Part shown: piece by piece, positions 41,127-63,480 of the stretch | Layout of the letters: each line of letters opens with the position of its first letter | Position numbering within the stretch: the first letter of the stretch is position 1 | Assembly (NCBI RefSeq): GCF_026914305.1 | Contig: NZ_CP113866.1 | Span: 938,183 to 1,002,182 of the forward strand | DNA: 64,000 nucleotides | Direction: 5' to 3' | From: Caldicellulosiruptor acetigenus | GTDB taxonomy: Bacteria; Bacillota; Thermoanaerobacteria; Caldicellulosiruptorales; Caldicellulosiruptoraceae | Translations under genes and position numbers: made by a program | Notes under the pieces: generated by a model | Database searches by the model: none | Seen by the model: the letters and a program-made list of their open reading frames with translations, nothing else | Told to the model about the DNA's origin: nothing

Positions 41127-41169
41127 AAAATTAAAGGGCGAAGCTATTGAGTCTTTGCCCTTTAATTTT
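41127..41169. terminator. Bidirectional intrinsic terminator
   Basis: A perfect 13-bp stem (AAAATTAAAGGGC / GCCCTTTAATTTT) separates the PDZ gene from the convergent small membrane gene. The stop codon of the small gene lies inside the stem. Confidence 0.92.
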
Positions 41170-41428
41170 TTGTTTTTGCAAGAAAGTCCACCAGGATTGC
41201 CGCACCAAGTCCTTCGATAAATATGTAAACAGAATTTTGTAAAAATCCCTGAGCTAACATTTTCAGGTCTACTTTGTCTGATACATAGTGCAGTGACAGG
41301 ATATAAAACTTTATTCCTATCAGTGCCATCACAATGGAAATAAGGCTTATTACAAGCAAGATTTTTTTTGAATAGGTAGAAATTTTTTGGAAAAATCCTT
41401 TCTTGCTCTTTTCCTTTTCCCTTTCCAC
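41162..41428 (-). CDS. Small uncharacterised membrane protein
   Basis: This 88-residue protein has a very basic N-terminus (residues 1-20) and two hydrophobic segments (about 22-46 and 64-83), so it is probably a hairpin in the membrane. I do not recognise a family. The GTG start has AAGGTG upstream, a reasonable sigma-A promoter lies at 41467-41495 and it shares a strong terminator, so it is likely a true gene. It diverges from the SpoIIQ-like gene. Confidence 0.7.
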   Translation of the reverse strand: MEREKEKSKKGFFQKISTYSKKILLVISLISIVMALIGIKFYILSLHYVSDKVDLKMLAQGFLQNSVYIFIEGLGAAILVDFLAKTKN

Positions 41429-41466
41429 TTCTCTGCACCTTCTTTGAAATCTTGTTTTGTAAAGTT

Positions 41467-41495
41467 ATGATATCAAACTCCAAAGAGATATTCAA
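41467..41495 (-). promoter_or_regulatory. Promoter of the small membrane gene
   Basis: On the minus strand, TTGAAT (41490-41495) and TATCAT (41467-41472) are separated by 17 bases. The -10 is extended (TGATATCAT). Confidence 0.6.
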
Positions 41496-41526: not shown

Positions 41527-41556
41527 GTATAACCAAAACAATGGATGGCAAAAATA
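41527..41556 (+). promoter_or_regulatory. Sigma-F (forespore) promoter of the SpoIIQ-like gene
   Basis: GTATA (41527-41531) and GGCAAAAATA (41547-41556) are separated by exactly 15 bases. This agrees at every fixed position with the Bacillus sigma-F consensus GYATA-N15-GGNNANAHTR. Transcription would start near 41563, just before the AGAAGGAGGTG ribosome-binding site. In Bacillus, spoIIQ is a sigma-F gene. Confidence 0.7.
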
Positions 41557-41579
41557 CTTTTATAGAAGGAGGTGCGAAG

Positions 41580-42437
41580 GTGGAAAAGAAAAACTGGAAA
41601 GAAAAACTTTTAGATTTTTTTGACACTAAAGGTTTTTATATTATTGTGGCTGTATGTTTGCTGGTAATCGGATTTTCGGTTTATACCATTGCCACAACAG
41701 ATTTTACAAAATACGAGGTAGAACAAAATCAAGAAAACAAGCAATCTTTAAATAACCAGGTTAAATTCCCCGAGATACCTCAGCCACAGGTTGATTCAAA
41801 AGAGGTGGCAAAACATGATAATTTGAAAAAAGAGAGTTCTAAGTCTATCACAAATTCTACTATCCGCTCTACACAGTCGGGAAATAATTCTAAAAATAGT
41901 AATAATAAAAATAAAAGCTCTACTGCCTTGTCTAAGAAACAAGATAACAAAAAGATGGATTCAAACATCCAGATTGGAACTGGTACCAGCCAGGATGATG
42001 TTGAGGTTATAAATCCTGTTGACTTCAAGCCAATTTTTCCTACCATTGGGAAGGTAATAAGAGAGTTTTCTGACCAGTCGCTTGTATATTCAAAAACTCT
42101 TGATGAGTGGACAGAACACCCTGGAATTGACATAGAAGCTCAGGATGGTAGCGATGTAAAAGCTTGTTTTGACGGTACAGTTATTGACTTGGGAGAAGAC
42201 CCTCTTTATGGGAAATATGTTGTGATTGACCATGGAGATGGATATATCTCAAAGTACTACAATCTCAAAGACTTAAAGGATATTCAAATAGGAGACATTG
42301 TAAGGCAAGGAGAGAAAATAGGAGAGGTTGGAACAAGTTCTAACATAGAGTACATGGACCCACCGCATCTTCACTTTGAGATACTTTACAATGGAGAGAA
42401 TCAAAACCCGCTGAAGTTTTTACCTCAAACAAATTAA
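41580..42437 (+). CDS. SpoIIQ-like membrane-anchored M23 protein
   Basis: The 285 residues have a cytoplasmic tail, one membrane segment (about 21-42), a Ser/Asn/Lys-rich low-complexity linker (about 60-130) and a LytM/M23 domain (about 150-283). In Bacillus, SpoIIQ in the forespore membrane pairs with SpoIIIAH across the septum. The zinc ligands appear present (HPGIDIEAQDG and HLHFEI), as in clostridial SpoIIQ and unlike the degenerate Bacillus protein. The GTG at 41580 fits GGAGGTG; an ATG at 41505 lies upstream of the predicted sigma-F promoter and is excluded if that promoter is used. A vegetative M23 hydrolase is the alternative. Confidence 0.78.
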   Translation: MEKKNWKEKLLDFFDTKGFYIIVAVCLLVIGFSVYTIATTDFTKYEVEQNQENKQSLNNQVKFPEIPQPQVDSKEVAKHDNLKKESSKSITNSTIRSTQSGNNSKNSNNKNKSSTALSKKQDNKKMDSNIQIGTGTSQDDVEVINPVDFKPIFPTIGKVIREFSDQSLVYSKTLDEWTEHPGIDIEAQDGSDVKACFDGTVIDLGEDPLYGKYVVIDHGDGYISKYYNLKDLKDIQIGDIVRQGEKIGEVGTSSNIEYMDPPHLHFEILYNGENQNPLKFLPQTN

Positions 42438-43574: not shown

Positions 43575-43684
43575 TTTTTGCTCCATACAAAAAGGTCTAA
43601 ATTTATTTTATCACTGATTCTGAATAATAAAAACAAGCTTACAAAAAATAATTTTAGAAAAATTTATATTTGGGGGTTTGCAGC

Positions 43685-44242
43685 ATGAGTAAACTCTTAA
43701 AAAGATATTCACTTTTTATCCTGCTTCTTTTGATGAGCTTTATTCTCAGCATATATTCTGCAAAGCTTATATATGATATAAAAAGAGCAAGCTACGAAAG
43801 TATTGAGAAAAAACTTGAAAAAGCATTGGACAGTACTGACAAAGAGGTTTTAAACGAATCTGTTGAAACGCAAGGGTCAACAAGCTACCAGAACAAAGAC
43901 TTGTATCTTCTGGCCAGAGTTATAAATGGGGAGGCAAGAGGGGAACCTTATATAGGCCAGGTTGCAATCGGGGCTGTAGTCATAAATAGAACAAAACACC
44001 CCGGATTTCCGAAGACAATCAGCGGTGTCATCTATCAGCCAGGTGCTTTTACTTGTGTGTCCGACGGGCAGATTAATGCAAAACTTGAACCAACAGCTTT
44101 AAAAGCAGCAAGAGACGCGCTAAATGGATGGGACCCGACAAACGGATGTATATACTACTACAATCCTGCAAAGACAACAAACAAATGGATTTGGAGCAGG
44201 AAGGTTATGCTTGTCATTGGCAAGCACAGATTTGCAAAATAA
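43685..44242 (+). CDS. sleB: SleB-type spore cortex-lytic hydrolase
   Basis: SleB is a lytic transglycosylase that degrades cortex peptidoglycan at germination. The 185-residue protein has one N-terminal hydrophobic segment (about 10-28) and the SleB/CwlJ catalytic domain from about 75, with VINGEARGEP (conserved Glu), GQVAIGAVVINRTKHPGFP and QPGAFTCV. It lacks the N-terminal peptidoglycan-binding domain of Bacillus SleB, a form common in Clostridia. The ATG at 43685 has TGGGGG upstream; a TTG at 43670 lies inside that site. Linkage to ypeB, 31 bases on, supports SleB over CwlJ or a vegetative hydrolase. Confidence 0.87.
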   Translation: MSKLLKRYSLFILLLLMSFILSIYSAKLIYDIKRASYESIEKKLEKALDSTDKEVLNESVETQGSTSYQNKDLYLLARVINGEARGEPYIGQVAIGAVVINRTKHPGFPKTISGVIYQPGAFTCVSDGQINAKLEPTALKAARDALNGWDPTNGCIYYYNPAKTTNKWIWSRKVMLVIGKHRFAK

Positions 44243-44273: not shown

Positions 44274-45674
44274 TTGAGCATTTTAGGCGGATACAAAGAA
44301 CTTAGGGAAAGGCTAAAAAGTGTAAGGCTTTGGAGTGTGATGGCGGTCACACTTGGCATTTTGGTTATTGTAGCGCTTTGGGGAGTAAACCAATATAGAG
44401 GAAAAGCAAACTACCACAACTATCTTACCAATATGTGGCACAGAGCATTTTTCGACATGGTAGGTTATGTTCAAAACATCCAGGCACTGCTGTCTAAAGC
44501 AGAAGTATCAGGAGATGACAGACAAAGAGCGGTATTATATACCGAGGTGTGGCGAAACGCTTTTGCAGCGCAGGAGAACCTTTCCCAGCTTCCTATTGAG
44601 AATAATGTTGCACTTGAAAGAACAGCAAAGTATCTTACTCAAGTTGGAGACCTTAGTTTTTCACTTTCAAAACAGCTCATGAGCGGCAAAAAAGAGACAT
44701 TGCTTCAGCGACAACAGCTCAAAAAACTTCGAGCATATGCAGACAAGCTCAGTAGCAACTTGAATGAGCTTGCAATTGAGATAAGCCAAGGAAGGCTGAG
44801 ATGGGGCGAGGTCAGAGTAGTTGGAACATCAAGGTTTAGAAGGATAGCTCAGAATGTCACAAGTAGCAGGATGCTGGCAGTTGAGGCAGGGTTTAAAGAC
44901 TATCCAACTTTGATATATGACGGACCTTTTTCTGACCACATTAGTCGCCAGACCCCAAAAGGACTTCCAGAAAAACTTATAAGCAAAGAACAGGCAAAAA
45001 AGATTGCACTTGACTTTTTAAATCTTAAAAGAGCTGACATAGTCAATTATTTAGGACTTTCAGGAGATAGAATAAAGGTTTATACTTTTGAGATAATCCC
45101 TGACAGAAGAATTCGCGACAGAACAATCACAATAGCTATTTCTAAAAAAGGTGGCAAAGTAATTTGGATGATTGACAACAGGGCTTCCTCTTCCCCAAAA
45201 ATAGGTGTTGCGAAAGCAAAGGAAAACGCTAAAAAGTTTTTACTTGAAAAAGGTTTTGCTAACATGATTGACACCTTTTATCTAAAACAGGACAACACTG
45301 CCCTGATAAATTATATTCTTCTGCAAAATGGTGTTAAGATATATCCCGATATGGTGAAAGTAAGAGTTGCTCTTGACACAGGGCAAATAGTAGGGTTTGA
45401 TGCAACAGCATATTATATGTCTCACACTTCAAGAAAGATTCCTAAACCTGCAATATCTGAAAGACAGGCAAGAAATTTTATTAGCAAAAATTTTGATGTG
45501 CAAAGCGTTTCACTTGCTATAATTCCACTTGATTCTGGAAAAGAAGTTTTCACATATGAATTTTTGGGCAAATACGATGGCAAGTACTTTGCTGATTATA
45601 TTAATGCTATCACTGGAAAGGAAGAAAATATCTTGGAGATAATTAAAGACCCTAATGGCATTTTATCAATGTAA
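44274..45674 (+). CDS. ypeB: Germination protein YpeB
   Basis: YpeB is needed to place or stabilise SleB in the spore. The 466-residue protein has a short cytoplasmic start, one membrane segment (about 20-40), a helical YpeB N-domain (about 45-200) and C-terminal PepSY-type repeats (about 235-460), matching the family layout. The TTG start follows GAGGTGAGG. sleB-ypeB is a conserved pair in spore formers and expected to be forespore-expressed; I could not find a convincing sigma-G promoter for it. Confidence 0.93.
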   Translation: MSILGGYKELRERLKSVRLWSVMAVTLGILVIVALWGVNQYRGKANYHNYLTNMWHRAFFDMVGYVQNIQALLSKAEVSGDDRQRAVLYTEVWRNAFAAQENLSQLPIENNVALERTAKYLTQVGDLSFSLSKQLMSGKKETLLQRQQLKKLRAYADKLSSNLNELAIEISQGRLRWGEVRVVGTSRFRRIAQNVTSSRMLAVEAGFKDYPTLIYDGPFSDHISRQTPKGLPEKLISKEQAKKIALDFLNLKRADIVNYLGLSGDRIKVYTFEIIPDRRIRDRTITIAISKKGGKVIWMIDNRASSSPKIGVAKAKENAKKFLLEKGFANMIDTFYLKQDNTALINYILLQNGVKIYPDMVKVRVALDTGQIVGFDATAYYMSHTSRKIPKPAISERQARNFISKNFDVQSVSLAIIPLDSGKEVFTYEFLGKYDGKYFADYINAITGKEENILEIIKDPNGILSM

Positions 45675-45752
45675 GCAAATGGATAATAAATTGAATAGTT
45701 TTTGAACAAACTAAGATATGCGGTGAAAAAGCCGCAAGGGGGGGCGATTGGC

Positions 45753-45926
45753 TTGGCAAGGCAAAAGATTATGTCAGAGGAGCTCAAAATGGAGATAGCA
45801 AAAGAACTTGGAGTGTACGACACAGTGTCAAAGTACGGTTGGGGAGAGGTAAAATCGCGCGACTGTGGTAACATCGTCAGAAAAGCTATCGAGATGGCAG
45901 AAAGAGCCTTGAAAGAAAAGCAATAA
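45753..45926 (+). CDS. Small acid-soluble spore protein, alpha/beta type
   Basis: SASPs coat and protect spore DNA and are degraded by GPR at germination. From a TTG at 45753, read with the AAGGGGGG site, the protein has 57 residues starting MARQKIMSEELKMEIAKELG. MEIAKELGV matches the GPR cleavage region, and VKSRDCGNIVRKAIEMAE matches the conserved C-terminal DNA-binding helix. Longer versions from a TTG at 45702 or GTG at 45723 lack ribosome-binding sites. It is a minor, short form similar to SspF-like clostridial SASPs, and it lies next to gpr, the protease that destroys it. Confidence 0.85.
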   Translation: MARQKIMSEELKMEIAKELGVYDTVSKYGWGEVKSRDCGNIVRKAIEMAERALKEKQ

Positions 45927-46066: not shown

Positions 46067-47050
46067 ATGTTTAAAATCCAAACAGACCTTGCCCTTGAGA
46101 CGAGGGAACTTGTCCAAAAAGGGCTTGGAAGGGAGATAGAAGGTGTTGAGGTTGAAGAGAGAAAAGAATTTGATGATAAAATTAAAATCACTAAGGTCAA
46201 GATTAACTCTATAAAAGGTGAAGCAATCTTACAAAAGCCTATGGGCAATTATATTACAATCGAAGCTGATGGATTGCGCGATGAAGATTTTGAGGTCCAG
46301 GAACAGGTTTCAAAGATACTGGCAAACGAGCTTGAAAGCTTAATAAATGTGTCACAAAAATCTACTGTGCTTGTTGTTGGACTTGGCAACTGGAATGTCA
46401 CGCCCGACTCTTTAGGGCCAAAAGTTGTGTCAAAGGTATTGATAACACGACATTTGTTTGAGTTTGTGCCAGAAAAGGTCAAAGACAGGCGAATACGCTC
46501 TGTTTGCGCAATATCGCCAGGCGTTCTGGGCATAACTGGAATCGAGACCAGCGAGATAATAAGCGGTATAGTTCACAGAATACATCCTGATTTGATAATT
46601 GCAATTGACGCACTTGCTTCAAGAAGGCTTGAGAGGATATCAACTGCTATCCAGATAGCAGATACAGGTATAGTCCCTGGCTCAGGTATTGGAAATGAAC
46701 GAAAAGGTATCACAAAAGATACAGTTGGTGTGCCTGTTGTGGCAATTGGTGTTCCTATGGTTGTTGACGCAGCAATTATTGCAAATGATGCCATAGACCT
46801 TCTGCTTGAAAGACTTAAAAATGAAACAGACAGGTCATCGCCGCTTTATATGCTTTTGGAGAGTATTCCTGATGAGGACAGGTTTAATCTTATCAAAGAG
46901 GTAATATTCCCTTACTATGGTAATCTCTTTGTGACACCAAAAGACATAGACAGGATTGTTGAAAACATTTCGACTGTGATAGCTGATGGAATAAATAAGG
47001 CAATTCATCCGGAGGTAAAAGAGAATGATGAGTACAGATATGTGAATTGA
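46067..47050 (+). CDS. gpr: Germination protease GPR
   Basis: GPR degrades alpha/beta SASPs at the start of outgrowth and is made as a self-processed zymogen. The 327 residues carry the autoprocessing motif TDLALE at 6-11. Conserved core segments follow, such as VVGLGNWNVTPDSLGPKV and HPDLIIAIDALASRRLERIS. The pro-sequence before the expected Asp-Leu cleavage is only seven residues, compared with 15 in Bacillus megaterium. The ATG is firmly supported by AAGGTGGGA. It lies downstream of a SASP gene and upstream of spoIIP; gpr-spoIIP is a conserved order. Confidence 0.95.
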   Translation: MFKIQTDLALETRELVQKGLGREIEGVEVEERKEFDDKIKITKVKINSIKGEAILQKPMGNYITIEADGLRDEDFEVQEQVSKILANELESLINVSQKSTVLVVGLGNWNVTPDSLGPKVVSKVLITRHLFEFVPEKVKDRRIRSVCAISPGVLGITGIETSEIISGIVHRIHPDLIIAIDALASRRLERISTAIQIADTGIVPGSGIGNERKGITKDTVGVPVVAIGVPMVVDAAIIANDAIDLLLERLKNETDRSSPLYMLLESIPDEDRFNLIKEVIFPYYGNLFVTPKDIDRIVENISTVIADGINKAIHPEVKENDEYRYVN

Positions 47051-47149: not shown

Positions 47150-48280
47150 ATGGTTAAGGTTGTTGATTTTAAAAAGATTGTATTGGTAGCTACTATACTT
47201 TTTGTGCTTGGCATTGGCTTTGTAGTTGAAAGATTAGTCTTTTTAAATCAAGCAGCAACAGCTCTGCTTTTCAGGTATTCAAAAGAGATTATTTCGTTTA
47301 ATATACCCATTTTTTCTGACCATTTTGCAAACGAGGCTTTTAAAATTGAGAACATAGTAAGGTTTTCTTATCCGATGTTTACGGCAACAAACTTTCAAGA
47401 GGTTGAAAATGCACCTGTATATGAAGATGATGCCATTTTAATAGATTATAACCAGCAGACCCAAGAAGAGAAGAAAAATGGTCAAGCTGAAAGCCAGGAT
47501 GAGAACATCGAATTTCAGAAATACTTTGAAAATAGTACTCAAAAAAAGGGAATTTACAACATAGAGATTGTGAATCAGACAGATTATAAGATTGATGTTG
47601 ATACCCTTTTGAAGGCAAACTTCAAAATTTTCAATGGGAAAAAACCGTCCATTTTAATTTACCATACCCACACAACAGAAAGCTACAATACTTTTTCCCA
47701 AAACCTTGTATACACTCCTGGCACAACAGACAGAACACTTGACTTTAACTACAATGTTGTGAGAGTAGGGGAAGAGCTGAAAAGAATCTTGGGAAAACAG
47801 TATGGTTATAAGGTTTATCACAGTAAAGATGTAAATGATTATCCGGAATACAAGGGTTCTTATTCAAGGTCATTGAAAGTGATAGAAAGATATAAAAGTG
47901 AACATCCTGATATAAAGGTCTTTATAGATTTGCACAGGGATGCTATTGGAAGTGGTTCAAAAAAGGTGAAGGTTTCAACAGTTGCGTTTGGATATGAGGT
48001 TGCAAAGGTTATGCTTGTTGTGGGGACAGACAAGCTTGGGCTTTATCATCCGTTTTGGCGACAGAACCTTCTGTTTGCTGTACATCTACAAAAAAATCTC
48101 AGCAAAATATGCCCTCAGATTACAAGACCTATAAACCTTTCTGCTGCACGATACAATCAACATGTATCACCATATGCCATAATCATTGAAGTTGGTAGCA
48201 ATGGAAATACCATGGAAGAAGCCTTGAGGAGTTGTCAGATTGTTGCAAAGGCACTGGATGATACCATCATGGGAAGGTGA
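47150..48280 (+). CDS. spoIIP: Stage II sporulation protein P
   Basis: SpoIIP is the amidase/endopeptidase of the DMP engulfment machine, acting with SpoIID and SpoIIM on septal peptidoglycan. The 376 residues have an N-terminal membrane segment (about 10-30), a variable linker, and the SpoIIP catalytic domain from about 140, with HTHTTESYNTF, DLHRDAIGS and IIIEVGSNGN holding zinc ligands and the catalytic Glu. The ATG has only a poorly spaced AGGAG 16 bases upstream, so translation may be weak or governed from a short overlapping frame starting at TTG 47136. A SpoIIM-like gene lies two genes downstream. Confidence 0.93.
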   Translation: MVKVVDFKKIVLVATILFVLGIGFVVERLVFLNQAATALLFRYSKEIISFNIPIFSDHFANEAFKIENIVRFSYPMFTATNFQEVENAPVYEDDAILIDYNQQTQEEKKNGQAESQDENIEFQKYFENSTQKKGIYNIEIVNQTDYKIDVDTLLKANFKIFNGKKPSILIYHTHTTESYNTFSQNLVYTPGTTDRTLDFNYNVVRVGEELKRILGKQYGYKVYHSKDVNDYPEYKGSYSRSLKVIERYKSEHPDIKVFIDLHRDAIGSGSKKVKVSTVAFGYEVAKVMLVVGTDKLGLYHPFWRQNLLFAVHLQKNLSKICPQITRPINLSAARYNQHVSPYAIIIEVGSNGNTMEEALRSCQIVAKALDDTIMGR

Positions 48281-48655: not shown

Positions 48656-49219
48656 ATGAAGACAAGGATAAAACTTTTAATTGTATCTATTTCTGTTTTG
48701 TATATTCTTAGTATGTTTTTTGGCATAAGATTTTTCTTGGGAATGAACACAAATCAGAAAAGCCAGCTTTCGAACTTTGTCTTACTTTCAATAAATATAG
48801 CAAAACAAGGAAACACGGCTTATTGGAAAAATGTTTTGATTTCCTCATCAGGAGTAATACTGTTTTGCCTTTGCATATGGGGGCTTTCCAGCCTTCACAG
48901 ATACATGCAGCTTTTGAACATAGGAATTGTAATGTTTAAAGGATTTTCTTTTGGGCTTACTACTGCTGTCTTTTTTTACGTGTATAAGATAAAAGGGCTT
49001 GCATTCTTTTTGTCTTATATGCTATTAAAAGAATTGATTGTTTTCATATTTTTGATTATACTTATTCTGTATTCATTTATAATGTTATTCTTTAAAGACA
49101 GAATGGTAAAAATAGATAAAAGGTCAACTGCTGTTATGAGAGTAATTATAATATTTTTAGCGTGCGGGATACTGGTGATTGACAACATGGTGGCAAAACT
49201 TGCCTGCAGGTTAATATGA
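48656..49219 (+). CDS. SpoIIM-like membrane protein
   Basis: SpoIIM is the membrane scaffold of the SpoIID-SpoIIM-SpoIIP engulfment machine. This 187-residue protein has about five hydrophobic segments (near 8-28, 63-80, 90-112, 116-145, 163-183), close to the family topology. The segment NIGIVMFKGFSFGLTTAVFF matches the typical KGFxxGxT core of SpoIIM. Overall conservation seems low, so identity also rests on position: in Bacillus and Clostridia spoIIM lies near xerD, as here, and spoIIP is two genes upstream. A sigma-E-like promoter precedes it. Confidence 0.72.
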   Translation: MKTRIKLLIVSISVLYILSMFFGIRFFLGMNTNQKSQLSNFVLLSINIAKQGNTAYWKNVLISSSGVILFCLCIWGLSSLHRYMQLLNIGIVMFKGFSFGLTTAVFFYVYKIKGLAFFLSYMLLKELIVFIFLIILILYSFIMLFFKDRMVKIDKRSTAVMRVIIIFLACGILVIDNMVAKLACRLI

Positions 49220-63405: not shown

Positions 63406-63480
63406 GTTTATTATACAAAAAAAGCGGGTAAAAATAAATTTGGGATATTATTTTTTCCTGCGGGGAGGGAAAATTGCTGT

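Follow-up and report, generated by a model that had tools for sequence, protein, structure and literature searches.

The locus analysed here raises the question of whether a gene with the layout of spoIIQ, preceded by a sequence resembling a sigma-F promoter, could be a working part of a forespore programme in Caldicellulosiruptor, a group called asporogenous (PMC10434631) and for which no spores have been reported (PMC10434631, PMC3533761, PMC3003633). We studied a 64,000-nucleotide window of Caldicellulosiruptor acetigenus (positions below are those of this whole stretch, here called the window) and compared it with genomes of the same genus, family and class. Our main reading, to which we give a probability of roughly 0.93, is that the gene is a clostridial spoIIQ with its own sigma-F promoter, and that its product would work as a forespore component of engulfment and of the channel to the mother cell. 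The family is known, including SpoIIQ and its sigma-F promoter in other organisms; what is new is the conservation of both in a genus regarded as non-spore-forming.

The sigma-F consensus is composed of GYATA at the -35 position and GGNNANAHTR at the -10 position. Pattern searching located GTATA-N15-GGCAAAAATA at 41527-41556 on the plus strand with 0 mismatches to this consensus, i.e. a GTATA -35 element and a -10 element bearing the upstream GG at a spacer of 15, inside the 14-16 range. The G upstream of the -10 element was described as a hallmark of sigma-F promoters in C. difficile (PMC3789822). This was the only match in the window, both strands considered (0.07 expected), and at least one match occurred in 7 of 100 shuffled windows. 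Genome G000, a single contig of 2,739,610 bp, contained the consensus 10 times versus 3 times for the reversed pattern (12 versus 5 when spacers of 14 or 15 were allowed), the majority of matches lying within coding sequence. Considering the shuffled and reversed-pattern counts, the match by itself is suggestive and not a proof; genome-wide counts were likewise dropped as proof of a regulon and, as they barely exceeded the reversed control, orthologous conservation was used instead. A scoring matrix trained solely on spoIIQ promoters from outside the genus ranked the same site first in the window, but its score (19.1) was lower than the best of random 64-kb sequence (null maximum 22.6), so that the argument for the promoter rests on conservation. 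A second matrix match, at 63406 upstream of a response-regulator gene, was taken as chance.

Among 11 species of the genus, 14 of the 15 promoter-element positions were invariant versus 5 of the 15 spacer positions (hypergeometric P = 8.5e-4). All five -35 bases and nine of the ten -10 bases never varied, the tenth being the free N of the consensus, and the 15-bp spacer diverged. The same element, with a spacer of 14 or 15 and at the same distance from the ribosome-binding site, was recovered in Acetivibrio relatives and at the 17 loci of the class that could be read. The ribosome-binding site AAGGAGGTG and the start codon at 41580 (GTG or ATG) were also kept in the genus, and transcription would be expected to begin around 41562-41564. 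The first-pass annotation had proposed a sigma-F consensus ending just before the ribosome-binding site, a start at GTG 41580 and a SpoIIQ layout for the product; the sequence match was confirmed and the proposals are all supported (the protein is treated below).

A different view is that TTGAAA-N16-TATGAT at 41444-41471, which agrees with the sigma-70 consensus at 10 of 12 positions, is a vegetative sigma-A promoter driving the gene during growth, its product being a common M23 hydrolase of the cell wall. Species of the genus do not however preserve this site as a whole: G005, G006 and G001 have lost its -35 element, and the other clade differs in both elements, in contrast to the unchanging sigma-F bases. 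The region also contains a conserved minus-strand promoter, spoIIQ is absent where sigF is absent, and vegetative M23 paralogues align only in their M23 domain, the EnvC-like protein of the same genome having the catalytic His. Growth-phase expression from this site is therefore barely credible. The sigma-A-like promoter of orf88 (Table 1) accounts for the conservation seen 5' of the sigma-F site. The latter gene is restricted to this bacterial family (12 of 13 genomes) and is a candidate sporulation-associated gene, though its promoter is sigma-A-like.

Table 1. Position of the spoIIQ gene, its promoter and catalytic motifs, and associated genes (window positions unless a locus or contig is given)
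Feature	Position	Strand	Remarks
GTATA, sigma-F promoter -35 element	41527-41531	+	Invariant in 11 genus copies; in 12/12 family genomes holding spoIIQ
-10 element GGCAAAAATA, 15-bp spacer before it	41547-41556	+	All fixed bases invariant; variation only at the free N
Ribosome-binding site AAGGAGGTG	41566-41574	+	Kept across the genus
Clostridial-type spoIIQ (285 aa, starting at GTG)	41580-42437	+	TM ~19-39, disordered linker 41-144, M23/LytM 179-277
HPGID (motif 1), with H180 and D184 as zinc ligands	42117-42131	+	Alignment
Asn228 codon, position of the second catalytic His (LytM His260)	42261-42263	+	Alignments; LytM mutants (PMC4594094)
HLH (motif 2), with H263 as general base and H265 as zinc ligand	42366-42374	+	Alignment
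orf88, 88-aa membrane protein of no known family, divergent from spoIIQ	41162-41428	-	Lost in G007, damaged in G008
Sigma-A-like promoter of orf88, TTGAAT-N17-TATCAT with TGn	41467-41495	-	Pattern and genus comparison
sleB, cortex-lytic enzyme	43670-44242	+	Conserved upstream GAATA...AAAAAATAAT, possible sigma-G type
ypeB	44274-45674	+	
Alpha/beta-type small acid-soluble spore protein (SASP)	45702-45926	+	
gpr, spore protease	46067-47050	+	Sigma-F gene in C. difficile, with spoIIP downstream (PMC3789822)
spoIIP, engulfment hydrolase	47150-48280	+	
Candidate strongly diverged spoIIM, between spoIIP and xerD	48656-49219	+	
spoIIIA operon, eight genes, weakly matching spoIIIAF included	L095 8495-13256	-	All present, intact
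bofC-like gene	L169, G000:C1:1862604-1863173	-	After yebC; conserved sigma-F/G-type promoter

In the 285-aa product, a single N-terminal TM helix is followed by a disordered linker and, at the C-terminus, by an M23 domain (PF01551, 2.4e-27) with HxxxD and HxH motifs, i.e. the layout of clostridial SpoIIQ. Orthologues spanning the full length were found in 12 of the 13 family genomes, one of them a broken copy, and 35 of 37 genomes of the class gave a match. In class relatives (L065-L082) the protein was 30-34 % identical from residue 7 onwards, over the whole remaining length, and the gene order in those checked was spoIID-spoIIQ-spoIIID-mreB. The protein is thus a full-length orthologue of proteins encoded between spoIID and spoIIID, where Galperin et al. 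(2012) placed C. difficile CD0125, their 'clostridial SpoIIQ' (PMC3533761). The NCBIfam SpoIIQ model NF053738, built on Bacillus, gave 73 bits against a cut-off of 250 bits; as a spoIID-linked clostridial orthologue (L075) also fell below this cut-off (66.6 bits), the result excludes the Bacillus type and not the clostridial one. Comparison of folds did not separate SpoIIQ from EnvC or DipM. Full-length orthology to genes flanked by spoIID and spoIIID, together with co-loss with spoIIIAH (see below), supports the assignment to SpoIIQ. In G004 (L105), the segment orf88-spoIIQ-ugtP is like that of the other clade (63-85 % identity to G000), with pdz, sleB, ypeB and gpr on its flanks being like those of G004's own clade (88-97 %); the segment was likely replaced by recombination.

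Compared by description, C. difficile SpoIIQ (CD0125) has the same TM-linker-LytM arrangement, HxxxD and HxH motifs, sigma-F promoter and SpoIIIAH partner. It differs in length (222 codons versus 285 here) and in its flanking genes, and the genus studied here is reported asporogenous; spoIIQ here lies between the gene of a PDZ membrane protein and ugtP/sleB-ypeB, beside sleB-ypeB-SASP-gpr-spoIIP. B. subtilis SpoIIQ (3tuf, 3uz0) shares layout and domain, the M23 domains aligning over ~105 residues (E about 1e-13), but lacks the first zinc His, whereas all zinc ligands are present here; the second catalytic His is missing in both, being replaced by Ser in B. subtilis and by Asn here. The spoIIQ genes of class relatives are alike in promoter and in spacing to the ribosome-binding site, and unlike in their 14- or 15-bp spacer and their gene order. 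Finally, M23 hydrolases of the EnvC/ShyA/LytM type have the fold in common, but the match is confined to the M23 domain, and the EnvC-like paralogue encoded by the same genome possesses the second catalytic His and lies in a vegetative context.

This second His bears on whether the protein is an enzyme. The first-pass annotation had considered it a possible active endopeptidase from its zinc ligands, and the observation on the ligands stands: the three ligands H180, D184 and H265, as well as H263 (equivalent of LytM His291), are intact in every SpoIIQ-type protein covering them. Only one of the two catalytic His of LytM is however present, as Asn228 occupies the His260 position, and residue 228 is Asn or Ser in each SpoIIQ-type protein alignable there. 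Because either catalytic His, when mutated, abolishes the activity of LytM (PMC4594094), the endopeptidase claim becomes doubtful. In C. difficile, SpoIIQ binds both zinc and SpoIIIAH, and its zinc-ligand mutant still partly completes engulfment, with no peptidase activity shown (PMC4982068). Thus, a DD-endopeptidase cutting septal peptidoglycan, which the intact ligands, the HxH general base and zinc binding in C. difficile would favour, appears decidedly unlikely here in view of Asn228 and of the partial engulfment of that mutant. The M23 domain is more likely a zinc-stabilised docking or structural module, weakly catalytic at most, than an efficient peptidase, a reading with which the phenotype of the C. 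difficile mutant agrees. Asn at this position also questions the common endopeptidase reading of clostridial SpoIIQ.

Genes with which a sigma-F-dependent SpoIIQ would operate were found intact. The spoIIAA-spoIIAB-sigF operon (L096), encoding the cognate sigma factor, was intact, as were sigG, spoIIR and spoIIP, and a search for spoIIIA genes elsewhere in the genome yielded the eight-gene operon that includes the SpoIIIAH partner. Galperin et al. had reported spoIIIAF as missing in the genus, and spoIIM and spoIIIAB as missing in some strains (PMC3533761). Regarding the candidate spoIIM, its sister-genus orthologue matched NCBIfam spo_II_M (7.8e-5, below cut-off) and the window protein had no Pfam match; in G009 the gene is frameshifted within a run of T, and in G008 it is broken. 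Family-model matches to SpoIIM in the genus were rejected as spoIIM: located elsewhere and occurring even in G007, they are probably paralogues.

Additional promoters of this type were searched for. Sigma-F promoters have been mapped in C. difficile for spoIIQ (CD0125), gpr-spoIIP and spoIIR (PMC3789822). Here, TATGTATA-N14/15-GGGAATAATA was found upstream of a bofC-like gene (PF08955, 6e-9) in 12 genomes. A related element, GTATA-N15-G[GT][CG]AATGCTA, with 1 or 2 mismatches to the consensus, precedes spoIIR, and a conserved site of the same promoter type, GAATA-N15-GTTAATAATA, precedes sigG. In the window, no sigma-F site was detected by pattern before gpr, sleB, the SASP gene or spoIIP, whose upstream regions carry conserved footprints that are not clearly sigma-F. 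Separately, GTATAAGTAAAAGTGGCAGTGGGAAAAATA (L007 1501-1530), located 5' of a GT4 glycosyltransferase gene and kept in one 8-species clade, is a possible further sigma-F target.

Two species provide a natural control. G007 has retained the flanking ftsE-ftsX-envC-ctpA-pdz and ugtP in order, and is devoid of orf88-spoIIQ and sleB-ypeB-SASP-gpr-spoIIP, and also of spoIIIAH, spoIIR, sigF, sigG and the bofC-like gene; Spo0A and SpoIID are retained. The bofC-like gene is present with its promoter in the other 12 genomes. In G008, spoIIQ has lost its start codon and carries a frameshift and a stop, its promoter being still readable, and spoIID, sleB, spoIIP and the bofC-like gene are broken as well. 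Full loss in the former and broken copies in the latter indicate that decay is complete in G007 and recent in G008. The sigma-F promoter reading is consequently supported by the genus footprint, the promoters of class orthologues, the intact spoIIAA-spoIIAB-sigF operon and the disappearance of spoIIQ from the one species devoid of sigF and sigG.

Selection on the gene was then compared with that on its neighbours. Within the genus (G000 versus other species), dN/dS of the SpoIIQ M23 domain was 0.03-0.07, the values being 0.06-0.08 for ctpA and 0.03-0.07 for gpr, and the linker evolved much faster than the M23 domain. Between the two clades, dS reached about 1.4-2.3, i.e. near saturation, with an M23 dN/dS of about 0.06; purifying selection at such dS implies that the gene has not been idle since the genus originated. 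These values bear on the view, suggested by the literature, that the ancestor of the genus had already ceased to sporulate, promoter and gene being decaying relics. Spores are indeed unreported (PMC10434631, PMC3533761, PMC3003633), and the genes are gone from G007 and broken in G008, but this loss is recent and lineage-specific, and relics would survive neither with such a dN/dS at near-saturated dS nor with all fixed promoter bases kept, which makes a fossil locus unlikely. Strong selection despite the lack of observed spores, as well as SigE and SigG transcripts responding in C. bescii osmotolerance work (PMC7071700), might instead point to a forespore regulon retained for a use other than dormancy, e.g. 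an unequal-division or stress programme. As the spore-specific genes (SASP, gpr, sleB-ypeB) are kept and lost together with the regulon, we hold such a use to be highly improbable.

Under the preferred reading, i.e. a clostridial spoIIQ under sigma-F control, RNA polymerase carrying sigma-F would initiate in the forespore near 41563 from GTATA-N15-GGCAAAAATA, giving a transcript whose leader of ~17 nt would begin just 5' of the ribosome-binding site. SpoIIQ would be anchored in the forespore membrane by its single TM helix, with its LytM domain, probably zinc-binding, in the space between mother cell and forespore. There, it may pair with SpoIIIAH of the eight-gene SpoIIIA complex and so contribute to engulfment and to the mother cell-forespore channel.

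The non-sporulating repute of the genus, a point absent from the first-pass annotation, changes what the finding of this promoter and gene means. Caldicellulosiruptor is used in cellulose biotechnology, and its sporulation genes have been called a historical record. The conservation of sigma-F promoters and the purifying selection imply a programme still at work long after the origin of the genus, and the sequence comparisons suggest that spore formation is hidden in the genus or was only recently lost. We see about an even chance that the majority of Caldicellulosiruptor species form spores cryptically, or have a functional forespore programme under sigma-F, with the promoter set and SpoIIQ under present selection and true loss having been independent, recent and limited to the G007 and G008 lineages. 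As one species is a natural knock-out that can serve as control, whether the genus sporulates becomes testable through a few named genes and promoters.
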